From Amycolatopsis jejuensis (GTDB lineage: Bacteria; Actinomycetota; Actinomycetes; Mycobacteriales; Pseudonocardiaceae): a DNA stretch of 64,000 nucleotides. Positions 61,467 to 63,724 of this stretch are shown piece by piece; positions within the stretch are counted from its first letter, which is position 1; every line of letters begins with the position of its first letter. The stretch spans positions 1-64,000 of the forward strand of contig NZ_JNYZ01000041.1 in NCBI RefSeq assembly GCF_000717335.1, read 5' to 3'. The notes below the pieces were generated by a model. The model made no database searches and was not told the DNA's origin. It was given only the letters and a program-made list of their open reading frames with translations. The position numbers were made by a program, and so were the translations under genes.

Positions 61467-61949
61467 ATGCGGCGTGCGGTTTGTCCCGGCTCTTACGACC
61501 CGGCCACCAACGGACATCTCGACATCATCGAGCGGGCTTCGGTGCTCTTCGACGAGGTCGTCGTCGCAGTGGGGGTGAACAAGAGCAAGAAGGGCCTGTT
61601 CACGGTCGAGGAACGGATGGACATGCTGCGCGAGATCACCGCGAAGCTGCCCAACGTGCGCGTCGATTCGTGGCACGGCCTGCTCGTGGACTACTGCCGC
61701 GACAACGACATCGCGGCGGTCGCGAAGGGCCTTCGCTCGGTCAGCGACTTCGACTACGAGCTGCAGATGGCGCAGATGAACCGCGAGCTCACCGGCCTCG
61801 AGACGCTCCTGATGGCCAACAACCCGGCGTACGGCTTCGTGTCCAGCTCGCTGGTGAAGGAGGTCGCGGCCCTCGGCGGCGACATCGTGAACCTCGTGCC
61901 GCCGGTGGTGTACGAGCGGCTGACCGAGGTGTACAAGAACCGCGACTGA
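61467..61949 (+). CDS. coaD: Pantetheine-phosphate adenylyltransferase
   Basis: A 160-residue nucleotidyltransferase that makes dephospho-CoA. The ATP site PGSYDPATNGHLDIIERA and the C-terminal FVSSSLVKEVAALGGDI are the family hallmarks; length is standard. It lies 26 bases after rsmD. A palindromic repeat begins 8 bases after its stop and probably ends transcription. Confidence 0.97.
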   Translation: MRRAVCPGSYDPATNGHLDIIERASVLFDEVVVAVGVNKSKKGLFTVEERMDMLREITAKLPNVRVDSWHGLLVDYCRDNDIAAVAKGLRSVSDFDYELQMAQMNRELTGLETLLMANNPAYGFVSSSLVKEVAALGGDIVNLVPPVVYERLTEVYKNRD

Positions 61950-61957
61950 GCCGAAGC

Positions 61958-62008
61958 CCGTGAAGGGAACCATCACGGAATCAGCTGGCCTGATGGTTCC
62001 CTTCACGG
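61958..62008. repeat. Dispersed palindromic element, copy 3
   Basis: Perfect 18-bp arms CCGTGAAGGGAACCATCA (61958-61975) and complement (61991-62008), 15-base loop CGGAATCAGCTGGCC. It is the longest-armed copy and starts 8 bases after the coaD stop codon, so it can act as terminator. Confidence 0.88.
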
Positions 62009-62145: not shown

Positions 62146-62844
62146 ATGACCAACCGTCGCAGCCGCATAGTCGGTGTCCTTTTCGCAGTGCTGGTCGGTT
62201 TCCTGGGGTTCGGCTCGGCCGCGGAGGCCGTCCCGCTCGCCCCGGCGACCGCCCTGCAGAACTCGTGCGGTGACCTGTCCGGCTTCAAGCACACGACGCT
62301 GTCCGCGTTGCCGCCGCAGGCCACGGACACGTACAACCTGATCCAGAAGGGCGGCCCGTACCCGTACCCGAAGAACGACGGCGTGGTGTTCTCGAACCGC
62401 GAAGGGATCCTGCCGTCCTGCGCGTCGAGCTACTACCACGAGTACACGGTGCCTACGCCCGGTTCCAGCAACCGCGGCACCCGCCGGATCGTGACCGGCA
62501 ATGGTGGCGAGTACTTCTACACCGGCGACCACTACGCGTCGTTCCAGGTGATCGACATCAACAGCAGTGGCACGAAGTGCGGTGACCTGTCGAAGCTGCG
62601 CACTGTCGGCTACTCGACGCTGTCTGCCGACGCGAAGAAGGTTGTCGACGGCGTACGCGCGGGCAGTCTCAGCAATGGCAAGACGTACGAGAACCGCGAA
62701 GGCGTGCTGCCGTCGTGCGCGTCTGGCTACTACACGCTGTACGCGGTCGGCGCCGACGACCGGGTGATCTCCGGCAAGGGCGGCGAACTCGCCTACACGC
62801 CGGACCACTACGCGACGTTCGGGAAGGTCGACCTCGGGGGCTGA
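62146..62844 (+). CDS. Secreted protein with two tandem guanyl-specific ribonuclease domains
   Basis: A 232-residue exported protein: signal peptide about 1-28, then two copies of the RNase Sa/N1-type fold. Domain 1 (about 40-137) keeps the residues equivalent to RNase Sa Glu41, Glu54, Arg69 and His85 as Glu86 (NREG), Glu99 (YYHEYTV), Arg114 and His129 (GDHYASF). Domain 2 (about 144-230) keeps the guanine-binding Glu184, Arg206 and His221, but the base Glu54 is replaced: the segment reads YYTLYAV with Leu198. Cys pairs (41/92, 145/191) suggest one disulfide per domain. Domain 2 is probably a degenerate duplicate. No barstar-like inhibitor gene is next to it. Confidence 0.92.
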   Translation: MTNRRSRIVGVLFAVLVGFLGFGSAAEAVPLAPATALQNSCGDLSGFKHTTLSALPPQATDTYNLIQKGGPYPYPKNDGVVFSNREGILPSCASSYYHEYTVPTPGSSNRGTRRIVTGNGGEYFYTGDHYASFQVIDINSSGTKCGDLSKLRTVGYSTLSADAKKVVDGVRAGSLSNGKTYENREGVLPSCASGYYTLYAVGADDRVISGKGGELAYTPDHYATFGKVDLGG

Positions 62845-62998
62845 TCGGCGCGCCGCGGGTACCGCCCCACCAGCGGGTGAAGCGGTACCGGCCCGGCCGG
62901 GTGAGGACACGCCCGGTCGGGTGCGCGTTCACCGGTTCAGGCTGTCCAGCGGGCAGACTGGACGGCAGTGATCGGGGAATCTGCTTGAGGGAGTGGCC

Positions 62999-63724
62999 GT
63001 GTACCGGGTTTTCGAGGCACTCGACGAGCTCGTCACGATCGTCGAAGAGGCCCGCGGGGTGCCCATGACGTCCAGCTGCGTGGTGCCCCGCGGCGACGTT
63101 CTCGAGCTGCTCGACGACGTCCGCGACGCGCTCCCCGGCGAGGTCGACGACGCGCAGGACGTCCTCGACAAACGCGATGACCTGCTGCTGGCCGCGCGCA
63201 AGGAGGCGGGGGAGACCGTCGCCGGCGCCAACGAGGAGGCCGAGAGCACGGTTTCCGACGCGACCTCGGAAGCCGAGCGGATCCTCGCCGACGCGCGCGC
63301 CCGCGCCGAGCAGATGCTGGCCGACGCGCACAACGAGGCCGAGCGCATGGTCGCGGGTGGGCAGGCCGAGTACCAGAACCTGACCGAGCGGTCGCGCGCC
63401 GAAAGCGAGCGGATGATCCAGGCCGGGCGCGACGCGTACGACCGTGCGATCGAGGACGCCCGCGCCGAGCAGGCCCGGCTGGTGTCGCAGACCGAGGTCG
63501 TGCAGGCCGCGCACGCGGAGTCCGCGCGCATCGTCGACGAGGCGCACACCGAAGCCGACCGCCAGCGCGCCGACTGCGACGCGTACGTCGACGGCAAGCT
63601 GGCCGAGTTCTCCGAGCTCCTGGCCACCACGCTGCGTACCGTCGACTCCGGCCGCAACCACCTGCGTGCGCCGACCAACCTCGGCGGCACCGGCCGGTCG
63701 ACGCTGTACGACTACCAGGTCTGA
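62999..63724 (+). CDS. sepIVA: SepIVA-type DivIVA-like septum protein
   Basis: A 241-residue protein. Residues 1-60 are the conserved head (YRVFEALDELVTIVEEA, RGDVLELLDDVRDALPGE); residues 65-215 form a long coiled coil rich in Ala/Glu/Arg (EAERILADARARAEQMLADA). It matches mycobacterial Rv2927c (SepIVA), a septation factor. GTG at 62999 is preferred over GTG at 62993, since it matches the mycobacterial start and leaves eight bases after GAGGGAG. Upstream of yceD, as in mycobacteria. Confidence 0.9.
   Translation: MYRVFEALDELVTIVEEARGVPMTSSCVVPRGDVLELLDDVRDALPGEVDDAQDVLDKRDDLLLAARKEAGETVAGANEEAESTVSDATSEAERILADARARAEQMLADAHNEAERMVAGGQAEYQNLTERSRAESERMIQAGRDAYDRAIEDARAEQARLVSQTEVVQAAHAESARIVDEAHTEADRQRADCDAYVDGKLAEFSELLATTLRTVDSGRNHLRAPTNLGGTGRSTLYDYQV

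Follow-up and report, generated by a model that had tools for sequence, protein, structure and literature searches.

The RNases Sa, Sa2 and Sa3 of Streptomyces (PF00545) are single-domain enzymes, whereas a gene of Amycolatopsis jejuensis encodes a protein with two RNase Sa-type domains, the second of which lacks the general base Glu54. The question raised by this locus is what such a second domain contributes to the protein that carries it. The gene is located in a stretch of 64,000 nucleotides of genomic DNA, referred to below as the window. Few small enzymes have been studied as thoroughly as RNase Sa and barnase, and no mention of tandem RNase Sa domains or of a fusion to Endonuclease I was found in the titles and abstract openings of the literature searched.

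The tandem RNase gene and its locus

The first domain of the protein is termed D1 and the second D2. The gene, the parts of its product and its conserved neighbours are located in the window as follows.

61467..61949, + strand: coaD, conserved upstream neighbour (TIGR01510 above cut-off; synteny)
62146..62844, + strand: tandem RNase Sa-type gene, 232 amino acids and stop (open frame; PF00545 twice; M-x-N start aligned in relatives)
62146..62229, + strand: putative Sec signal peptide, residues 1-28, AEA cleavage motif (read by eye; start aligned in relatives)
62266..62559, + strand: D1, residues about 41-138, with a full RNase Sa-type active site
62560..62577, + strand: short linker, residues 139-144, between D1 and Cys145 of D2
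62578..62841, + strand: D2, residues about 145-232, a catalytically degenerate RNase Sa-type pseudo-domain
62993..63724, + strand: DivIVA/Wag31-like coiled-coil gene, conserved downstream neighbour (weak Wag31/DivIVA matches below cut-off; synteny)

The PF00545 profile matched both domains within the 232-residue frame, in agreement with the earlier note, which had described two RNase Sa-type domains behind one (putative) signal peptide. The whole protein scored 119.5 bits and D1 alone 90.7 bits, at a curated cut-off of 24. Chance or mis-framing was ruled out as the source of the tandem gene by the open frame, the PF00545 matches and the conserved family. D1 and D2 of the window protein were 43% identical (38/88). 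The identity to RNase Sa was 64% (56/87) for D1 and 38% (29/76) for D2. RNase Sa, Sa2 and Sa3 were the closest solved structures, and the structures retrieved by sequence were those of single-domain RNases. D2 alone was still predicted to adopt the RNase Sa2 fold, and both its profile match and its predicted RNase Sa fold place it in the PF00545 fold family. The structure model of the two-domain protein (pTM 0.61, pLDDT 92) gave no confident relative orientation of D1 and D2. In 150 two-domain relatives the linker consists mostly of Gly, Thr, Pro and Ala. With export read from the signal peptide by eye, the protein is probably a secreted RNA-cutting enzyme.

The neighbourhood of related genes was surveyed in the best 80 of 546 named loci. 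Neighbour genes were identified with TIGR00095 and TIGR01510, and the DivIVA-like gene, which we take to be sepIVA, was identified weakly. Among these 80 loci, 58 adjoined rsmD, coaD and/or the DivIVA-like gene; 25 of the 58 were tandem and 33 single-domain, one of the latter with two adjacent genes. A barstar gene adjoined 18 other loci, all single-domain, and the remaining four had neither type of neighbour, three of them being tandem. On account of this survey, the window gene is assigned to a coaD-locus RNase lineage of Pseudonocardiaceae, which is often single-domain and carries D2 in some genera.

A 35-bp palindromic element (GGAACCATCA ... TGATGGTTCC) was observed at 61966-62000, between coaD and the RNase gene. 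It was found at 46 places in the 10.1-Mb genome, compared to 0 for a reversed control pattern, and looks like a dispersed REP-like repeat.

Active-site residues of D1 and D2

In RNase Sa, Glu41 forms part of the guanine site, and Arg65 and Arg69 belong to the catalytic residues. Glu54 and His85 of the enzyme are described as catalytic, and Gln38 and Tyr86 as RNA-binding (PMC2791442). Equivalent residues in D1 and D2 were assigned by alignment and are listed with their counts in the 150 two-domain relatives.

62401..62403, + strand: E86 = Glu41, guanine site of D1 (150/150)
62440..62442, + strand: E99 = Glu54, general base of D1 (150/150)
62530..62532, + strand: H129 = His85, general acid of D1 (150/150)
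62698..62700, + strand: E185 = Glu41, guanine site retained in D2 (150/150)
62737..62739, + strand: L198, replacing the general base Glu54 in D2 (Leu 146, Phe 2, Ile 1, Val 1 of 150; Glu in none)
62761..62763, + strand: R206 = Arg69, retained in D2 (150/150)
62806..62808, + strand: H221 = His85, present in D2 of the window protein, not conserved in D2 of relatives (His 41/150)

The family set contained 166 proteins, namely the 150 intact two-domain proteins, 15 single-domain proteins and P0069, which has an internal deletion and was excluded from every count of 150. One source of the set was the best 120 of 2496 matches, and close relatives are therefore over-represented in it. Besides the residues listed, Arg65, Arg69 and Asn39 of D1 were each present in all 150 proteins. 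D1 would accordingly be described as cutting RNA by the standard RNase Sa mechanism, with Glu54 as base and His85 as acid, and guanine-specific cleavage is predicted. Six of the 74 occupied columns of D2 were invariant (Asn39, Glu41, Tyr52, Arg69, Gly73 and Phe89; 150/150), and the guanine-recognition loop Asn39-Arg40-Glu41 was retained. D2 also has a signature of its own, consisting of Tyr37 (149/150), Leu54 (146/150) and Pro83 (144/150). Position 85 of D2 was Arg in 78, His in 41, Asp in 14, Lys in 9, Ser in 3, Asn in 3 and Gly in 2, so that the general acid was absent in 109 of the 150. Two loops are gone in the Amycolatopsis-type D2s.

The earlier note had read D1 as keeping the complete RNase Sa active site, and D2 as keeping the guanine-site Glu, the Arg and the His while Glu54 had become Leu198. 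Both readings were borne out, and the change to Leu proved to be typical of the second domain. A different acidic residue in the role of base, raised in the same note, was looked for as well: a candidate such as Asp at position 68 (Asp 85/150, Arg 62/150) was ruled out by alignment. The note had also allowed for tandem relatives with Glu54 in D2, and none was seen among the 150 two-domain proteins; a rare exception may exist, as the searches covered the best 120 of 2496 matches, the best 120 of 4076 matches and the best 80 of 546 loci.

It is very unlikely that D2 is still an RNase, acting through a different base or with weak activity. The window protein does have His221 and Arg206, and other residues serve in some RNases of the same fold, RelE and MqsR being described as having the RNase fold without the Glu/His pair (PMC2791442). 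However, the base is gone in 150/150 and the acid in 109/150 of the D2s, no conserved replacement acid was found by alignment, and the Arg65 loop is missing in 85/150, the window's group included.

Glu54 and His85 were kept in all 15 single-domain proteins of the family set. A search with a D2 profile (best 120 of 4076 matches, 121 domains) returned Glu54 in 111 domains, and Leu in nine and Val in one of the other ten. Among the ten, P0169 corresponds to the latter half of an incomplete tandem protein. Six others (P0170, P0173, P0174, P0176, P0196 and P0221) are short gene models of 65-90 amino acids, which by their appearance are pieces of D2. The single-domain matches P0171 and P0172 resemble collapsed hybrids of D1 and D2, either real or artefacts of assembly, as does a further single-domain match, P0219. 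The tenth, P0194 (144 amino acids), is a single-domain, apparently secreted relative of RNase Sa with Val54 and Tyr37, in which His85 is kept; the loss of Glu54 is thus not limited to second domains.

At the coaD locus of Kutzneria viridogrisea (L063:4908-5790) two neighbouring single-domain RNase genes were observed, both with Glu54 and His85. This pair is the nearest approach to a tandem relative with Glu in the second copy, and is a possible picture of the stage preceding domain fusion.

Selection on D2 and its fusion to Endonuclease I

Pairwise dN/dS values were calculated by NG86 for 28 loci, with 376 usable of 378 pairs. The median was 0.37 for D1 and 0.46 for D2, and D2 exceeded 1 in 16 of the 376 pairs. 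The mean column entropy was 1.15 for D2 and 0.80 for D1. D2 is under purifying selection that is somewhat relaxed, and evolves faster than D1. The faster evolution of D2 and the loss of two loops from its Amycolatopsis-type members would fit a structural or evolutionary leftover, serving as a ligand-free spacer or stabiliser. This is highly improbable and the last of the explanations we would choose, as opposed by purifying selection on both tandem and fused D2s, by the invariance of the guanine-site residues, and by the transfer of D2 to another enzyme described below. Since the guanine site is kept in 150/150, a signature of its own is present and the domain has moved to another enzyme, D2 is a selected pseudo-domain and not a decaying copy.

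Two-domain proteins were also found outside the family, in Actinocatenispora and Flexivirga. In a tree of the domains based on all columns, D2 formed a single clade (99/93), and with the trait columns removed it was split by a branch with support of 97/89. In the AU test neither a single D2 clade (p 0.093) nor the grouping of Actinocatenispora-type D1 and D2 as one clade (p 0.308) was rejected.

A match to D2 only was found in genome G033 with the tandem profile. The corresponding protein of 361 amino acids (L145:1672-2757) contains an Endonuclease_1 domain (PF04231) at residues 44-252 (E 1.3e-42), and, beyond a linker rich in Pro and Glu, D2 at residues 276-357 (E 1.7e-8). Endonuclease I with a C-terminal D2 is also present at the loci L149, L150, L152, L153, L154 and L156. 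With the L145 fusion protein as query, the endonuclease part was matched in 118 of 249 family genomes (119 matches, at least 285 bits), and the full-length fusion (1-361) in six of them (G033, G067, G095, G133, G149 and G164). These are six of the seven genomes of the Prauserella-type group g33; in the remaining one, G116, the endonuclease lacks D2. As the fusion is found in 6 of 118 endonuclease genomes, all in one genus group, it may go back to one event. The genomes of P. aidingensis (L055) and P. salsuginis (L056) gave matches at the positions already recorded for G149 and G133 and were not counted twice. In P. endophytica (L068) the endonuclease is present but D2 is not, and P. muralis (L075) gave RNase-domain matches only. 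The public gene models P0176 (Prauserella aidingensis, 72 amino acids) and P0173 (Saccharomonospora sp. CUA-673, 77 amino acids) are, by their sequences, shortened versions of fusion genes, being identical after the first Met to the fused D2s of G149 and G164.

Leu54, Asn-Arg-Glu and Arg69 were present in all six fused D2s, and position 85 was Tyr in four, His in one and Leu in one. Their median dN/dS was 0.28 (15 pairs). The six grouped together (97/97) within a clade of Amycolatopsis- and Prauserella-type tandem D2s of the loop-lost kind (100/99), and one tandem D2 branched outside the fused clade at 91/71 (midpoint root). Because the fused D2s nest within the tandem D2s, the module was probably passed from the tandem RNase to Endonuclease I. 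D2 is thereby attached to more than one catalytic type, RNase D1 and Endonuclease I. In G067, G095 and G164 the fused D2 is present without a tandem D2, and in both G067 and G095 the remaining PF00545 match is of the barstar-linked type.

The distribution of D2 was narrow. The D2 profile gave 31 matches of at least 116 bits in the 249 family genomes: 15 tandem proteins in the window's genus group (17 genomes), four tandem and six fusion proteins in g33 (seven genomes) and six tandem proteins in g31 (six genomes). The next match, at 107 bits, was a single-domain RNase. In a class survey of 394 genomes, 67 matched the tandem profile at E 1e-20, at full length only G000 and G033. Among 396 phylum genomes the window's own D2 was the only match of D2 strength, the best elsewhere reaching 78.9 bits.

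Function of D2 and protection of the cell

The explanation that we somewhat prefer is that D1 cuts RNA and that D2 arose as a duplicate of the RNase Sa fold and became an accessory module without catalysis, which in Prauserella-type relatives was moved onto a secreted Endonuclease I. Having dropped the general base and, in most relatives, the general acid, while retaining the guanine loop and Arg69, D2 would grip guanine-containing RNA or another guanine ligand and hold the enzyme on its substrate, to the presumed benefit of the attached nuclease. Binding of substrate is suggested by the conservation of these residues; as a counterpoint, Glu41 and Asn39 of D2 might be kept for folding instead. 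The median net charge was -8 for loop-kept D2s (62/150) and +1 for loop-lost D2s, the two being separated by a simple text rule, and does not suggest electrostatic binding of RNA. RNase Sa is itself acidic, and the charge of D2 therefore decides little.

Carbohydrate-binding modules and pseudoenzyme binding domains are non-catalytic, linker-joined and movable on secreted hydrolases. The proposed role of D2 would resemble that of a carbohydrate-binding module serving a glycosidase, and D2 is likewise non-catalytic by prediction, linker-joined, movable and found on apparently secreted hydrolases. In contrast to those modules, it derives from a catalytic domain by degeneration and has a base-specific site. 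The window protein, for its part, lacks a PF04231 domain and belongs to a different catalytic family than Endonuclease I.

The earlier note had offered two roles for D2, substrate holding and an inhibitory module that tunes D1. The evidence favours the former. For the latter, D2 would dock on D1 or hold its product and so quiet the enzyme before or after export, and in line with this it follows a catalytically intact D1 in all 150 tandem proteins. A nearby barstar gene was also absent from the 58 coaD-locus loci among the best 80 of 546 (0/58), as judged by blastp with the barstar of A. jejuensis only, which a distant barstar could escape. Regulation of D1 is nevertheless quite unlikely. D2 occurs on an unrelated nuclease, in three genomes without any tandem RNase, which would not be expected of a dedicated inhibitor of D1; together with the mobility of D2 this favours a guanine/RNA-binding accessory module. 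Furthermore, the 33 single-domain loci among those 58 manage without D2, the two-domain model gives no confident docking orientation, and barstar is encoded elsewhere in the genome of A. jejuensis and in 227 of the 249 family genomes.

It is unlikely, too, that D2 binds something other than substrate RNA, be it free guanine nucleotides, a partner outside the cell, or barstar, for which D2 would act as a decoy. Given its guanine loop and Arg69, D2 could accommodate free guanine nucleotides besides RNA. The active-site arginines of RNase Sa-type enzymes are contacted by barstar. Corresponding contacts with Arg59, Arg83 and Arg87 of barnase are described (PMC8837141) and speak for the decoy. On the other hand, to propose any guanine ligand that is not a nucleic acid is speculative. 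The module is also apparently exported and joined to Endonuclease I, for which we know of no role of barstar.

The presence of the same dead copy on a different secreted nuclease in a few relatives suggests that D2 is a reusable nucleic-acid-binding part. A family that keeps the guanine site and loses the catalytic pair would be a natural case of recognition split from cleavage over long evolutionary time. The transfer suggests that extracellular nucleases can bear base-specific binding modules, as glycosidases bear sugar-binding ones. If true, D2 would be usable directly as a guanine-binding protein scaffold, and it would provide a model on which the way secreted nucleases choose or hold RNA could be tested. 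A wider class of guanine-reading modules can be proposed tentatively, in which dead RNase Sa domains serve secreted nucleases as mobile units for nucleic-acid binding. Such modules might have originated twice, in Pseudonocardiaceae and in Actinocatenispora/Flexivirga, through an identical Glu-to-Leu change, with later transfer to Endonuclease I.

The note had further pointed to the lack of an adjacent inhibitor gene and asked how the cell protects itself before export. The first point held: no barstar gene was linked to the window RNase gene, and the only barstar match of the genome was on contig C11. The second is less puzzling than it had seemed, given the barstar encoded there and the single-domain orthologs at the coaD locus that lack D2. 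The genome of A. jejuensis has two PF00545 genes and one barstar gene (PF01337). On contig C11 (L002:1118-1920) the end of a single-domain guanyl RNase gene overlaps the start of the barstar gene by four bases, an arrangement of the barnase/barstar type; the window gene differs from it in being two-domain, without a linked barstar, and placed between coaD and the DivIVA-like gene. PF00545 was found in 211 of the 249 family genomes. Of 20 listed family genomes without barstar, 19 were outside these 211, the exception being G087; two further barstar-less genomes were absent from that list. G018, G029 and G056 each have a single PF00545 match, located at the coaD locus, and carry barstar on a different contig, which is consistent with protection in trans. 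Barstar genes were also observed in genomes without a PF00545 match, for instance G024, G035 and G039, and barstar may therefore have other partners in such genomes.
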